DNA of 47,366 nucleotides from Thermodesulfovibrionia bacterium (GTDB lineage Bacteria; Nitrospirota; Thermodesulfovibrionia; UBA6902): NCBI GenBank assembly GCA_947259645.1, contig CAMYND010000014.1, positions 1-47,366 on the forward strand, given 5' to 3'. The notes under the pieces were generated by a model. The model did no database searches. It was not told the DNA's origin and worked only from the letters and a program-made list of their open reading frames with translations. Below, piece after piece: positions 17,095 to 36,868 of this stretch. The position numbers and the translations under genes were made by a program. Position 1 is the first letter of the stretch. Every line of letters begins with the position of its first letter.

Positions 17095-17706
17095 ATGAGA
17101 TCATTGAAACAGAGTCAATATATCTTTCTTGGTATTTTCTTACTGATCATTGCGGGAATAACTGCATGTCAGCAGGATAAGCCTGATGGCATTGCTGAAA
17201 CCCCTGCCCCGGAATCAGCCGCTGCAGAGCCTGCGAGCACTGTAGTTGACGAGTTGATGACCGCATTAAATATGCACCAGTTCAAGAACCCGGTGCAGGC
17301 GCCTGACTTCGAACTATCCTCTCTTGAGGGAAACAAAATCAGCCTGAGCCAGTATCGCGGCAAAGTCGTATTCTTGAGTTTCTGGGCTACCTGGTGACCA
17401 TGGTGCAGGAAGGAGTTGCCTTCCCTCGAGAAAATACATCAGCGATTTAAAGACAGGCCTGTCGCTGTTGTAGCTATAGATATAGAAGAAAAAAGAGAAA
17501 CTGTTCGTAAGCATGTTCGCAGCAACGGCCTTACCTATACAAATCTTCTTGACACTGACGGCAGGATAAGTGCCCTGTATGGGGTCAGGTCCACGCCCAT
17601 GAAGTACCTGATTGATAAAGATGGCAACCTGATCGGCGCAGCCCTTGGCTACCGGGACTGGGACCAGGATGAGATTAACATACTGATCGAGGAACTGCTG
17701 AAGTAA
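17095..17706 (+). CDS. TlpA/ResA-like thioredoxin, selenocysteine-containing (in-frame UGA)
   Basis: A 203-residue thioredoxin-fold protein read through a TGA at 17395-17397 (codon 101). The N-terminus is hydrophobic with lipobox ITAC (Cys25), so it is probably anchored facing the periplasm. The redoxin domain starts at APDFELSSLEGNKISLSQYRGKVVFLSFWATW. At this point a Cys is expected in the WCxxC active site; the codon is TGA, followed by PWC, giving W-U-P-W-C (Sec101, Cys104). The same frame continues with RKELPSLEKIHQRF and the cis-Pro motif VRSTPMKYLID. Without recoding the gene would be two useless halves. A candidate SECIS hairpin follows the TGA. Its likely role is disulfide or selenenylsulfide chemistry in the envelope. 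Confidence 0.9.
17395..17424 (+). promoter_or_regulatory. UGA-Sec codon and candidate SECIS hairpin (TlpA-like gene)
   Basis: After the TGA (17395-17397) come 16 bases and then the loop AGTTG (17414-17418). The loop is closed by a perfect 6-bp stem GGAAGG (17408-17413)/CCTTCC (17419-17424). Bacterial SECIS elements sit just downstream of UGA with a small loop carrying G and U, and the spacing resembles E. coli fdhF as I recall it. The hairpin lies inside the coding frame. Confidence 0.65.
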
Positions 17707-17779: not shown

Positions 17780-18235
17780 CTACTTACCAAATTCTTTGTC
17801 TATTGCTCTTTTTATTTCGTTAACTGACTTTCCCTGTTTATAAAGCTGGGTGACCCTCAAGGCCTCCTTCTGGCAAAGCTGTCAACCAGCGCCATGCTTG
17901 TCAGTAAAGCAGCTTAAAAGTGTTTTGTGATTGAACGGCGGCGCATCGCAGTAACAGTAACAATAAACTTCATTCAATATCTCCGGATTTTTTTGGGCCG
18001 CAGCATACGCCATTCTTGTCTGCCCGCTGAACATGGCGGGATCCAGGACAGGCCTTGTTTCCTTTTCTGTTAGATTGAATGATTTACCCGCTTCAGCCTT
18101 ACTGCCGAAGAAGGGCAGGTTTCCTGTTCCGGCGAGCACCGCAACAACCACTGCTACTGCAGCTATTACCCAGAGGACCGGGCTTCTTTTCTTCTCAGGG
18201 GGCTGATTCTTTTTCCCCTTGTCTTTACTAGCCAT
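17780..18235 (-). CDS. CYCXC (PCYCGC-motif) family protein, selenocysteine-containing
   Basis: A 151-residue protein when the TGA at 17884-17882 (codon 118) is read as Sec. It has a basic N-terminus, a hydrophobic segment (about 20-36) that would anchor or export it, and a Cys cluster CYCYC (92, 94, 96). FNHKTLLSCF (Cys109) and HGAG-U-QLC (Sec118, Cys121) follow, then a helical tail EALRVTQLYKQGKSVNEIKRAID, ending at TAG. In the PCYCGC/CYCXC family the residue after HGAx is a conserved Cys and the EAxxxxxLxxxGKSVxxIRxxID tail is conserved, so stopping at TGA would remove a family-specific region. GGAGGT precedes the ATG by 5 bases. Function is unknown; a periplasmic redox or metal role is inferred. 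Confidence 0.88.
17855..17884 (-). promoter_or_regulatory. UGA-Sec codon and candidate SECIS hairpin (CYCXC gene)
   Basis: On the minus strand the TGA (17884-17882) is followed after 16 bases by a tight loop AGG (17865-17863). The loop is closed by AAGG/CCTT, a tandem G-A internal mismatch and an outer CC/GG. The loop offset equals that in the neighbouring TlpA-like gene. The stem is weaker, so the structure is less certain than the recoding itself. Confidence 0.5.
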
Positions 18236-18309: not shown

Positions 18310-18648
18310 TTAATATATTGATCTGACCCTGCCTGTCTGGCGGTCAAAAATAATTATATCAACAACTTTGGCCTTCTCTTTGATCTTTGCCCTGATAAAC
18401 CTCCCTCTTTTGTGTTCAACCTCAACAGACAGTCCTTTCTTGTGATAATAATCTATCATCGCTTTTCTGGCTTCGTCATGACTCATCGGCGTCTTACAGG
18501 TACCGTATTTCGTACATTCGGGGCAGAAGTCTCCATAGGGTGTTACTTTCTTTCTTTCGTGATCTGAAAAACCGCTGGTTGGGAACAAAAGCAGCATCAC
18601 AGGAATAAGCAGCACAACTAATCGATATTGTTTACACGTACTATTCAT
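18310..18648 (-). CDS. small secreted protein with CxxC-x5-C motif
   Basis: A 112-residue protein with a signal peptide (VVLLIPVMLLLFPTSGFS). The mature part starts with YGDFCPECTKYGTCK (Cys42, Cys45, Cys51), followed by MSHDEARKAMIDYYHKKGL and a basic beta-hairpin-like region ending VDIIIFDRQTGRVRSIY. I do not recognise a named family. The start at 18648 is preferred because AGAAGA lies about 5 bases upstream and the signal peptide begins there; an earlier in-frame codon at 18714 lacks support. It lies 74 bp upstream of the CYCXC selenoprotein gene on the same strand, so it may be co-transcribed and act with it in the envelope. Confidence 0.8.
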   Translation of the reverse strand: MNSTCKQYRLVVLLIPVMLLLFPTSGFSDHERKKVTPYGDFCPECTKYGTCKTPMSHDEARKAMIDYYHKKGLSVEVEHKRGRFIRAKIKEKAKVVDIIIFDRQTGRVRSIY

Positions 18649-18773
18649 ATTCTTCTGTTTATACGATAATAAAAAAAAGTGAAGAAATTGTGAACAGCTT
18701 ATAGAAATAAGCAATACTCCTCAAAGAATAAATTAACTGTCCTCTTCATCTCTTCTGTCATTTGTTTCTCCTG

Positions 18774-20129
18774 TTAAAAAACAACCGTAAACCTTGCACC
18801 TTTACCCGGCCTGCTCCGAAGCTCTACCTTGCCCCCCATTACCTCGGTTAATTCCTTTACAATCGCAAGGCCAAGCCCCTTGCCTTCTGATGAGGCATCC
18901 TTGTGAAACCTCTTAAAAACACTGGTAATCATCTCCTCGGCAATGCCCTTGCCAGTATCTTCAACAGAAAGATAAAAGCCCTTTGGCCCTTCCTTACTGA
19001 ACTCACCCCAGAACACCCTGATGCCTCCGCTGCTGGTAAACTTATACGCATTTGACAAAAGATTGTTCAGCACAATATGAAGTTTCTCAGGATAGGTCCG
19101 GACAGTAATTAAAGGCCCTTCTGTTTTAATATATAAACCTTTTTCTTCAATAATTTTTCTCATCCCGCTGACGATAGACTCCACAAACTCTTTGATATCA
19201 AGTTCTTCAGATGGTCCCCGTTTAAAGAAACTGGCTTCAGCCTGTGTCACATCTTCAATACCTTCAACGAGAGACGTAATCCTCTGAATTTCAGACTTTA
19301 CATTATCTATCACCTCCAGTGGATCTGAAATAATTCCGTCCTCAATTGCTTCAAGGTTACCCCTGATTATCGTAAGAGGAGTTCTCAGTTCATGGGCGAT
19401 ATTCGAGGTCAGATGTTTGCGCAATGCGTCTTCTCGCTGCAGGGCATCTGCCATATAATTAAAGGTTTCTCTCAGCTCATCCAGCTCGTCTCTAAATATA
19501 TTATGCGGCACAGGCTCAGTTACAGAAAAATCACCGTCTGCAATCTTTTTTGCCGAAACATTCAGGCGCCTCAGGGGATTTGACAGATACATGGTGAACA
19601 TTATCGACATAATAAGTGCTCCGCCCCCGGCTATCAGAAATGATATGATCAGGAAATTCCTGCCTCTGTCCCTGAATATCTCTTCTTTTAAGGGGATGAT
19701 CCCGGATCTCTCAACAGGTCGAACATACAATTTACCGATCTCATCTCCTTTGACATAAAGGGGATACCAGCGATATTCTCCCCTTCCGGATGTCAGGTTC
19801 AAAAAGGAGCTCATCCGTTCGATCATATTGGGATTCATTCTAGACAAAACATCTGATGACGAGAGAACTCTTTCACCTTCAAAGTCCTCAATATAGGCCT
19901 CAAATCCGAGCATCATGCTCCAGTGAACCGCTTCGGTAAGAAGACCCATGTTCCATTCACCTTCTTTGTAGCTCCCTTCGACGGACGCCATAACCCAGTA
20001 TATCTGATCTTCTTCCGTCCCGCGGACAAAGTCATCAAAATCTCCGATTATAAGACGCTCAAATACTACATTGGAAAGAAGGGCAATCAGGATAATAAAC
20101 AGAAATGCAAGAAATAGCTTAGTCCTCAT
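18774..20129 (-). CDS. sensor histidine kinase (two transmembrane segments, HAMP)
   Basis: A 451-residue membrane sensor kinase. It has TM1 (about 4-24), a periplasmic sensing region (about 25-150), TM2 (about 153-180), HAMP (about 180-235), a dimerisation/phospho-acceptor helix with HELRTPLTIIRGN, and an ATPase domain. That domain has an N-box NNLLSNAYKFT, VEDTGKGI and GKGLGLAIVKEL. The architecture is BaeS-like and the signal is not known. Its first codons overlap the end of the response regulator gene by 11 bp, so the two are co-translated. Adjacency to the thiol/selenol cluster is notable but there is a 125-bp gap, so regulation of that cluster is only a hypothesis. Confidence 0.92.
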   Translation of the reverse strand: MRTKLFLAFLFIILIALLSNVVFERLIIGDFDDFVRGTEEDQIYWVMASVEGSYKEGEWNMGLLTEAVHWSMMLGFEAYIEDFEGERVLSSSDVLSRMNPNMIERMSSFLNLTSGRGEYRWYPLYVKGDEIGKLYVRPVERSGIIPLKEEIFRDRGRNFLIISFLIAGGGALIMSIMFTMYLSNPLRRLNVSAKKIADGDFSVTEPVPHNIFRDELDELRETFNYMADALQREDALRKHLTSNIAHELRTPLTIIRGNLEAIEDGIISDPLEVIDNVKSEIQRITSLVEGIEDVTQAEASFFKRGPSEELDIKEFVESIVSGMRKIIEEKGLYIKTEGPLITVRTYPEKLHIVLNNLLSNAYKFTSSGGIRVFWGEFSKEGPKGFYLSVEDTGKGIAEEMITSVFKRFHKDASSEGKGLGLAIVKELTEVMGGKVELRSRPGKGARFTVVF

Positions 20130-20811
20130 CAGGAATACCGACGAATTTGTACCCTACTCCATAGACTGTTTTAAGATAAACCGGTGACTTCTGGTCGTCT
20201 TCGATTTTGTGGCGGATATTTTTTATATGGGCATCAATTGTGCGGTCATAACCCTCAAAGTCATAGCCGAGGATTATATTGACCAGCTGCAGGCGGGTGT
20301 ACACCTGACCGGGGTGGTCCGCTATGCACTGCAATAATTTAAATTCAGTGGGTGTGAGAACAACCGTTTCCCCTTTTTTAGTGACCTCAAAGCGTGCAGA
20401 GTCAATAATAAGGTCTTTCTTGTTAAAACTGACAAATTCTTTTGGTCCTTTCACTCTTCTCAATAATGCCTTAACCCGCGCGACAAGTTCCCTCGGGCTG
20501 AAGGGCTTAACAACATAGTCATCAGCCCCGATCCCAAGCCCCTTGATTCGGTCCTCTTCTTCGCTTTTCGCGGTAAGCATGATGATCGGCACATCCGAGT
20601 CATTGCGAATCGTCTGACAGATGTCTTCACCTTCCATATCAGGAAGCATGAGGTCCAGTATGATGAGATCAAAACCCTGTTTAAAGGCGGTAAGAGCTTC
20701 ATCCCCGGTCTTAGCGAGAACTACCTGGTACTGTTCTTTTTCCAGATAGGCCTTAACGATCTCGGCGATTTTTTGTTCATCTTCAACAACAAGAACTTTT
20801 CTCCCTTTCAT
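20119..20811 (-). CDS. OmpR/PhoB-type response regulator
   Basis: A 230-residue regulator with a receiver domain (VLVVEDEQ acidic pair, LIILDLMLP phospho-acceptor Asp, LTAKSEE, KPFSPREL) and a C-terminal winged helix (LTPTEFKLLQ, DRTIDAHIKNIRHKI, VYGVGYKF). It is the partner of the adjacent kinase. I place the start at ATG 20811 (MKGRKVLVVEDE). There is no Shine-Dalgarno, and a TATCAT -10-like hexamer ends 6 bases upstream, but no good -35 is visible. It is divergent from yggS. Confidence 0.92.
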   Translation of the reverse strand: MKGRKVLVVEDEQKIAEIVKAYLEKEQYQVVLAKTGDEALTAFKQGFDLIILDLMLPDMEGEDICQTIRNDSDVPIIMLTAKSEEEDRIKGLGIGADDYVVKPFSPRELVARVKALLRRVKGPKEFVSFNKKDLIIDSARFEVTKKGETVVLTPTEFKLLQCIADHPGQVYTRLQLVNIILGYDFEGYDRTIDAHIKNIRHKIEDDQKSPVYLKTVYGVGYKFVGIPDED

Positions 20812-20904
20812 GATAAAATGATACCACAAAACTTATGAAATAATTGTGAAATTATATTCAGTTACCTTGCCAAGATCTTTGAAAACATGATAATCTGTTA
20901 AGCG

Positions 20905-34962: not shown

Positions 34963-35583
34963 TCATACTATTTCTGTGGGACTACTGCTGTCAGTTTCTA
35001 TAAAACTGAGAAGATAATCCTTGAACCGTCCGGGCAAAAGCCATCGTATGCCGAACTTTTCAGCCCATTTTATAGCCCCATGGTCAACAGTCACAAGCAA
35101 TGCGTCAAGCTCCTTCGCCAGAAGAATCAGGTCAACGTCTTCCTTACTGTCAATTATTCCCTCCCTGAGGGCGTCCCTGTAGTTCTTCCTCATGTTCTGA
35201 ATCAACTCCCGCTCATCAGTCTTTCCCGCGCTCCTGACAGCCTTTTCAGCTATTCTCAGGCCTTTGTTAATCCTGTCTCTCATGTCTTCAACAAGTTCGT
35301 AGAGAAGGTAGGCAGGGCAGGTCAATACATGCTTATCGGGCGGCCTCTGGTGCAGAACAGCGAGAAAACGGCCGGGAATTTCATCTTGATCAACAAAATT
35401 CAGCAGCTCCTGAAAAATGGAGGTCGGCATATAGAATTCCAGAGACGGGATCTGCTCCGCTATAAGCAGAAAGCCATGAAGTGCTTCAGTTGGCGAGTTA
35501 CCAAAACTGTGACGGATTTCCGGGTTAACAAACAGACTCGTGTCAAGAACTACTTTGTCTTTTCTGGGTCTCACGGGCATCAT
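34963..35583 (-). CDS. HARP-type protein-only RNase P (RNA ligase partner family)
   Basis: A 206-residue PIN-like metallonuclease of the family once called RNA ligase partner protein. Its Aquifex homologue (HARP) was shown to be a protein-only RNase P that removes tRNA 5' leaders. Motifs: VVLDTSLFVNPEIRHSFG with the first catalytic Asp, PTSIFQELLNFVD, YELVEDMRDRINKGLRIAE, REGIIDSKEDVDLILLAKELDA and VTVDHGAIKWAEKFGI with the remaining acidic residues. The start is the ATG at 35583 (or 35580), inside the last 41 bp of the LapAB-like gene, so translation is probably coupled. rnpA/rnpB are not in this window. Confidence 0.92.
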   Translation of the reverse strand: MMPVRPRKDKVVLDTSLFVNPEIRHSFGNSPTEALHGFLLIAEQIPSLEFYMPTSIFQELLNFVDQDEIPGRFLAVLHQRPPDKHVLTCPAYLLYELVEDMRDRINKGLRIAEKAVRSAGKTDERELIQNMRKNYRDALREGIIDSKEDVDLILLAKELDALLVTVDHGAIKWAEKFGIRWLLPGRFKDYLLSFIETDSSSPTEIV

Positions 35584-36868
35584 TAATATCAAGGATAAAA
35601 GAATTCCAGTTATCGCATTCAGGGCACCTGCCGGACCACTCCGTTGATTCAAAATCACATTCAGAGCAGGTGTAGGGAACTACAATGGGCTTATCAATTC
35701 TCAATGCCTTTTTATATTCGTCTATTGCTTTCTCTTTTTCCGAACGCCTTTCATAGACAGTGCCGAGCAAGGTGTGCATGCCCGGAATATCCAGTACAGC
35801 GGGATCAATTGCATTTACTGTTTCTGAAACATGGTCTATCATCTCAAGACGATAGTACAGCTTGGCAAGAAAAAAACGGAGTTTCACATTTTTAGGATTT
35901 TTCTGTAATGATTTCTGATAAATGTCAATAATCGAACCAGGTTCACCCTCTGCTATATAAAAGTCCTCAAGCCTTGCCAGAATGACCATGGACTCTGTTG
36001 TCTCATATCCCTTCAGCAAAATGTTTTTTGCGTCGCTGGTGTTCCCGCCTTTCATATAGGCATCTGCAAGAGCAAGGTATGCTGAGGTGAAGTTCTCATC
36101 ACTTTTCATGATCGCTTTCAGGGACTTGATTGCCTTGTCACCGTCACCATCTTCAATTCCCTGGCAAGCCAGCTCATATTTATACCCTGTCAGTCTTCTG
36201 TTCTCGGCCTCTTCCTCTTCAGGCGAAAGCTTGCCTTTCAGAATTTTAGTCTGTATCTCTATGAGCTCATTCCAGTTTCTGTTTGTTTCGTATATCTCCC
36301 TTTTTCTCACAAGTATTCTGGAATTTTCATCATCAATTTCCAGTATGCTGTCAAGATACTTTAACGCTTCCGGCCATTTATGCTCTGATTCAGCAACATT
36401 GGCAAGTGATAACAGTACCTCAATACTCCTGGGCTTTACCTCTCTCGCCTTTAAGTAAAAATCTTTGGCCTCTTCATGCTCTCCCTCAATGTAGGAGGTA
36501 TCTCCCAGCCTTAACAGCGCGTTTACATGCGTTGGATTGCTTTCAGTTACCTGCTTGAAAAGTTCCGCTGCCTCTTTGTGTCTGGAGGCATAAAATGCTT
36601 CAAGACCTTTTGCATAGGTTTCCTGTATCTTTAGTTCCTTTTTCTGCTGCCGCTGAATTTGCCAATGATCAAAGTAGCGCCGGGCATCCCGTATCGAATA
36701 AATAATCAGCATAAATATGATGGATACTCCTGTGGCTCCAAGGATCAGTGCGATAACCGGAATTGAGTGCGAAATATCTTTCCAGATAGTCAGATCAACT
36801 GTTCCCTGATTAAAGTATGCGAGCACCCCGAGTACTGCGAGAAATATAATTATTACTAACTTTGTCAT
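35543..36868 (-). CDS. lapB: LapA-LapB-like fusion: two TM segments, TPRs, rubredoxin-type zinc motif
   Basis: A 441-residue protein. The first 60 residues have two hydrophobic segments (about 4-20 and 34-58) in the pattern of LapA/DUF1049. The following region is a TPR array (about 85-400). The C-terminus carries CSECDFESTEWSGRCPECDNW, the rubredoxin-like zinc motif of LapB/YciM. LapB regulates LpxC turnover and LPS assembly in E. coli, where LapA and LapB are separate. The fused form is an observation from this sequence; function is inferred from LapB. The HARP gene overlaps its 3' end. Confidence 0.82.
   Translation of the reverse strand: MTKLVIIIFLAVLGVLAYFNQGTVDLTIWKDISHSIPVIALILGATGVSIIFMLIIYSIRDARRYFDHWQIQRQQKKELKIQETYAKGLEAFYASRHKEAAELFKQVTESNPTHVNALLRLGDTSYIEGEHEEAKDFYLKAREVKPRSIEVLLSLANVAESEHKWPEALKYLDSILEIDDENSRILVRKREIYETNRNWNELIEIQTKILKGKLSPEEEEAENRRLTGYKYELACQGIEDGDGDKAIKSLKAIMKSDENFTSAYLALADAYMKGGNTSDAKNILLKGYETTESMVILARLEDFYIAEGEPGSIIDIYQKSLQKNPKNVKLRFFLAKLYYRLEMIDHVSETVNAIDPAVLDIPGMHTLLGTVYERRSEKEKAIDEYKKALRIDKPIVVPYTCSECDFESTEWSGRCPECDNWNSFILDINDARETQKRQSSS

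Follow-up and report, generated by a model that had tools for sequence, protein, structure and literature searches.

An in-frame TGA as the probable selenocysteine codon of a CYCXC-family (OS_HP4) protein gene in a Thermodesulfovibrionia bacterium

The CYCXC, or OS_HP4, family of selenoproteins was first described in 2007, according to a review (PMC13188914). In the reviews that list it, OS_HP4 is a UxxC protein assigned to PF13798 with one selenocysteine (Sec), and the source cited is Zhang and Gladyshev 2007 (PMC13188914; PMC9312934). PCYCGC, the Pfam family PF13798, has been treated as a protein of unknown function (PMC13068155). Here we analysed a window of 47,366 nucleotides from a Thermodesulfovibrionia bacterium (Nitrospirota; the window is the whole stretch of DNA studied), which carries a gene of this kind. 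The gene is a well-supported, routine selenoprotein gene, one more member of a known family and not a discovery; what we add beyond the known family is a test of its SECIS element, a check of the Sec machinery, a candidate Sec-containing neighbour and a hypothesis of metal handling.

The gene and its critical codon are as follows.

17780-18235, minus strand: CYCXC-family selenoprotein gene, 151 amino acids (coding sequence 18235-17783; stop codon TAG 17782-17780), as read by translation with TGA as U and by matches to NF041379 and PF13798
17882-17884, minus strand: in-frame TGA, putative Sec118 of the HGAG-U-QLC motif, in a column occupied by U in 68 and by C in 16 homologues

Standard ORF calling yields an open reading frame of 117 codons (18235-17882, minus strand) that is terminated by the TGA at 17884-17882. 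Past this TGA, 33 more codons precede the TAG at 17782-17780, so that translation with TGA as U gives a product of 151 amino acids with the C-terminus ...KHGAGUQLCQKEALRVTQLYKQGKSVNEIKRAIDKEFGK. A preliminary description of this DNA had claimed this interval, the membership in the CYCXC/PCYCGC family and a conserved tail beyond the TGA, and we reproduced the interval exactly. The 151-residue product matched the NCBIfam model NF041379, "CYCXC family (seleno)protein", with 126.6 bits (cut-off, 90 bits) over model positions 1-89 of 90, and PF13798 with 35.7 bits (gathering cut-off, 25 bits), which bears out the family assignment. The NF041379 match covers residues 60-149 and hence includes the tail past the TGA. 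The motifs that NF041379 calls for are present as C92-Y-C94-Y-C96 and U118-Q-L-C121; a literal PCYCGC, which gives PF13798 its name and is not Pfam's membership criterion, is replaced by YCYCYC, and the protein is accordingly placed in the CYCXC branch. An open run of 33 codons has a probability of about 20% by chance (our estimate for uniform composition) and is weak evidence alone; the evidence that counts is the conservation of the tail and not the length of the run. Taking these comparisons together with those below, we consider that the TGA at 17884-17882 encodes selenocysteine and that the protein belongs to the CYCXC (OS_HP4) family with a probability of about 0.94, as judged from sequence. 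Standard ORF calling would thus lose 34 residues of the protein, the UxxC motif included. The earlier expectation that gene callers truncate this gene holds for such ORF calling, but not fully for the NCBI pipeline, which has the NF041379 model meant to catch the truncation, since both NCBIfam and reviews already count the family among the selenoproteins (PMC13188914).

The state of the TGA column was followed across Nitrospirota. Of 47 genomes searched within the order, 19 had an NF041379 match; 18 of these matches scored over the cut-off, and each of the 18 contained exactly one TGA. A wider search with PF13798 gave a match in 77 of 396 Nitrospirota genomes. Among the 84 aligned Nitrospirota homologues with a clear base at the TGA column (one sequence with an ambiguous base and one cut off before the column being left out), the codon was Sec in 68, Cys in 16 and any other residue in none. 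The tail after the TGA was conserved in every homologue extending that far, and no aligned Nitrospirota sequence had its natural end at the TGA position. In a maximum-likelihood tree built from 83 of the homologue sequences, with many forks unresolved, the Sec/Cys label needed only two changes, while 500 shuffles of the label averaged 14.1 and none was as low. Because so few changes are needed, the alignment and tree indicate that Sec is the old, stable and majority state in two subclades (A, which contains the window, and B) rather than a state that took the place of Cys recently. The preliminary description had said that the TGA replaces a conserved Cys, making UxxC; the column of U or C only and the UxxC motif stand, whereas the implied direction does not, Sec being the majority state. 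As a separate observation, one homologue (genome G288, contig C1, 1192480-1192710) reads HAAAUNLUQDEA, with TGA at both UxxC positions; it is possibly a two-Sec (UxxU) form, and its downstream stem differs; as it comes from a single genome, an error is possible. Four PCYCGC/CYCXC paralogues are encoded on the same contig, of which two have Sec and the other two Cys.

A bacterial SECIS element would be expected inside the gene, immediately downstream of the UGA. The candidate in the window, numbered with the U of UGA as +1, is the following.

17849-17867, minus strand: putative bacterial SECIS stem-loop, nucleotides +18 to +36, identified by the pairing of third codon positions in Sec versus Cys genes

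It reads GG-A-GGCCU-UGA-GGGUC-A-CC, with an apical loop at +26 to +28. In this register, nucleotides +18 to +25 are paired with +36 to +29 (i+j=54), and third codon positions lie opposite third codon positions. Such third-third pairs formed standard pairs in 96% of cases in the Sec genes, as against 35% in the Cys homologues; the other third-third registers of the Sec genes gave 20-45%, except i+j=63 at 71%. The pair +21/+33 was seen as G-C, G-U and A-U. The mean number of stem pairs formed was 7.4 of 8 in Sec genes versus 3.7 of 8 in Cys genes, and the value for Sec genes exceeded those of all 500 synonymous recodings (average 6.3, maximum 6.7), in a test that is conservative in that the codon pool for recoding was drawn partly from the stem itself. 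The window copy forms seven of the eight pairs, with one A-A mismatch, a level reached by 10% of synonymous recodings. When cut out, its stem folds as drawn (-5.9 kcal/mol), no better than shuffles in this single sequence, and the window's stretch after the UGA, folded on its own, did not stand out from shuffled sequences either. This null result arises because the conserved stem is absent from the minimum-energy structure, and comparative pairing was needed to see it. These results show that the putative post-UGA stem behaves as expected of a bacterial SECIS element, with support that comes from the family, the window copy alone not being significant.

The predicted product has a simple architecture.

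18125-18181, minus strand: single N-terminal membrane helix, a putative anchor, residues 19-37 (AlphaFold helix; hydrophobic VLWVIAAVAVVVAVLAG in the sequence)
17948-17962, minus strand: CYCYC motif (C92, C94, C96), invariant in a 59-row alignment

AlphaFold predicted an all-helical domain behind the helix 19-37, with a mean pLDDT of 87 and a core of about 98, and placed Sec118 and Cys121 where the helix of residues 119-133 begins. We infer that this domain is extracytoplasmic, because the N-terminal tail, which would lie inside, is positively charged. In the 59 homologues the invariant columns were A80, C92, C94, C96, H103, L106, C109, H114, U/C118, C121 and A125; eight of these 11 are, by residue type, putative metal ligands (CxCxC, H, C, H and UxxC). 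A sequence-profile search of the PDB found no matching chain, and Foldseek against the PDB gave no significant fold match; the insignificant matches include the CcmH periplasmic domain, with a probability of 0.2-0.3.

The genes around the CYCXC gene that bear on its function are listed below.

17095-17706, plus strand: TlpA/ResA-like thioredoxin-fold protein, convergent with the CYCXC gene, with a TGA at 17395-17397 in WATW-U-PWC (translation, profile searches and relatives)
17408-17424, plus strand: putative SECIS hairpin of the TlpA-like gene, GGAAGG-AGUUG-CCUUCC (shuffles and relatives)
18310-18714, minus strand: small exported Cys-containing protein (PYGDFCPECTKYGTC), unnamed, an upstream partner gene (its cluster also precedes CYCXC in many relatives from each subclade)
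18774-20129, minus strand: sensor histidine kinase, BaeS/CopS-like (NCBIfam, below equivalog cut-offs; conserved neighbour)
20119-20829, minus strand: OmpR-type response regulator (Pfam and NCBIfam; conserved neighbour)

The CYCXC gene lies downstream of, and on the same strand as, the response regulator, the sensor kinase and the small exported protein, and relatives of both subclades have these three gene clusters upstream of CYCXC as well. The small exported protein, which carries PYGDFCPxCTKYGxC, matched no Pfam or NCBIfam family. Five relatives of the TlpA-like gene have the U in common with the window gene. The hairpin of the window gene had a z of -2.8, with two of 200 shuffles folding equally well, and GGAAGGAGTT-CCTTCC is preserved in relatives; we therefore regard the TlpA-like neighbour as a candidate second selenoprotein. 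Upstream of it lies a gene for a CGGC-domain protein (PF08821; 16530-16967, plus strand), Cys-rich and possibly metal-related. The window holds a third candidate for TGA read-through (34963-35679, minus strand; 50-codon extension), which showed no Cys-like context.

Relatives and distant homologues suggest what the protein may do. In many relatives of subclade B, the next genes encode YtkA-like, YHS, TolC and CusB proteins, and CusA/CzcA-type permeases lie within a few kb. CusA or CusB was found within 10 kb of the CYCXC gene in about 21-23 of 62 genomes, where about 3 would be expected by chance from about six HlyD_D23 matches per genome; this by-eye count from coordinates, made over related genomes some of which were picked because a pump had already been seen, is indicative. 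No efflux pump was found near the window's own CYCXC locus or in the stretches read around the subclade A genes of the window's own family. Among more distant PCYCGC homologues with Cys, those on plasmids of Paraburkholderia fungorum and Burkholderia contaminans (33-36% identity) both sit amid RND efflux genes, a copper-binding protein and DsbD; the former locus additionally has a multicopper oxidase, CopC/CopD and two TlpA proteins, and the latter CueR and a heavy-metal P-type ATPase. A Paenibacillus plasmid carries a Cys homologue in the vicinity of genes for a heavy-metal P-type ATPase and an ArsR-type regulator. The literature that we searched, a limited collection in which absence proves little, contained no statement linking PCYCGC/CYCXC to copper. 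Since the distant Cys homologues sit in such loci, a role with copper or another soft metal is our best single guess for the family, to which we give a little less than an even chance; with no pump close to the window gene, such a role would be inherited by the window protein from its relatives.

These observations can be combined into a scheme. SelB with Sec-tRNA-Sec(UCA) most probably decodes the TGA, aided by the intragenic stem-loop that follows it, and translation runs through to the TAG, producing a 151-residue, membrane-anchored CYCXC (OS_HP4) protein. Its active site would comprise CYCYC, His103, Cys109 and His114, together with the Sec118-x-x-Cys121 pair where a helix begins, and the extracytoplasmic domain may be a thiol/selenol centre, redox-active or metal-binding, that takes part in handling copper or heavy metals. 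The TlpA-like thioredoxin, itself a selenoprotein candidate in this lineage, might keep the CYCXC domain reduced or assemble it, and the adjacent two-component system might regulate the CYCXC gene. For the functional part of the scheme, namely the metal-handling centre, its upkeep by the TlpA-like protein and its regulation, we would offer odds just short of even. Its more specific version, in which CYCXC/PCYCGC proteins have a periplasmic site for copper(I) or a similar soft metal made of five Cys, two His and one Sec/Cys, strengthened with selenium in Nitrospirota of this class, we consider less likely, at well under an even chance. If that version is true, selenocysteine would serve metal detoxification and would itself be served by a selenocysteine-containing TlpA partner. 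For a family that lists carry as no more than a hypothetical protein, the combination of eight invariant candidate ligands, efflux loci in several lineages and the candidate Sec-TlpA pairing in this clade makes the function directly testable.

The strongest alternative accepts the selenocysteine and differs in function: the protein could have no connection with metals and act as a general thiol-disulfide oxidoreductase or peroxidase, as the UxxC at a helix start, the adjoining redox TlpA-like gene and the CcmH domain among the insignificant fold matches might suggest. The eight invariant Cys/Sec/His positions, however, exceed the needs of a UxxC oxidoreductase, and metal-efflux genes adjoin the genes of relatives and distant homologues; we judge this alternative possible, at well under an even chance.

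The alternatives that deny the selenocysteine fare much worse, and we reject them. A functional 117-residue protein ending in HGAG, at a true stop, would agree with where standard ORF calling halts, but it is very improbable given the conserved tail, the restriction of the codon to TGA or Cys, the absence of a homologue stopping there, and the stem that Sec genes keep and Cys genes lack. Reassignment of TGA in this genome, for instance to Trp, found no support and is still less probable, since the Sec/Cys column, which shows Cys and not Trp, excludes it. The genome (99.55% complete) moreover encodes SelA and SelB in tandem (contig C11), a tRNA-Sec with the anticodon TCA (UCA) scoring 72.4 bits against a gathering cut-off of 47 (contig C83), and SelD (contig C94, 2026-2940), and the only two well-supported in-frame TGAs in the 47-kb window are both at catalytic Cys positions. 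The SelD match contains an in-frame TGA, and SelD is thus probably itself a selenoprotein; the tRNA-Sec and selA-selB lie on separate contigs. A pseudogene or sequencing error, conceivable in that TGA is one base from a Cys codon, is excluded with similar firmness by the recurrence of the same TGA in 68 distinct sequences from many genera. Two of the checks proposed at the outset, alignment of the U/C column and a search for the Sec machinery, both came out for selenocysteine: the machinery is complete, with SelA, SelB, SelD and tRNA-Sec(UCA). Homologues ending naturally at the TGA or a missing machinery, named beforehand as contrary findings, were not encountered, and the U/C column, the tail and, in Sec genes, the stem are conserved.

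In comparison with known systems, the TlpA-like neighbour resembles described TlpA/ResA-like Sec proteins in its thioredoxin fold with putative Sec for an active-site Cys; it differs from the NF041054 motif WAxxUGC in having WATWUPWC, and it scores below the NF041054 cut-off. With the Cys-only members of PF13798 PCYCGC (Bacillota, Burkholderiales and others), the window protein shares the profile family and the succession of CxCxC, C and CxxC, but it has YCYCYC in place of PCYCGC, Sec where CxxC has its first Cys, and a putative transmembrane helix as its anchor where those members have an apparent lipobox. With NF041379/OS_HP4 it shares an above-cut-off score, the CYCXC motif, a single predicted Sec in UxxC and the conserved tail; there is no difference of substance, and the window protein would be a further member of that family, from Nitrospirota.
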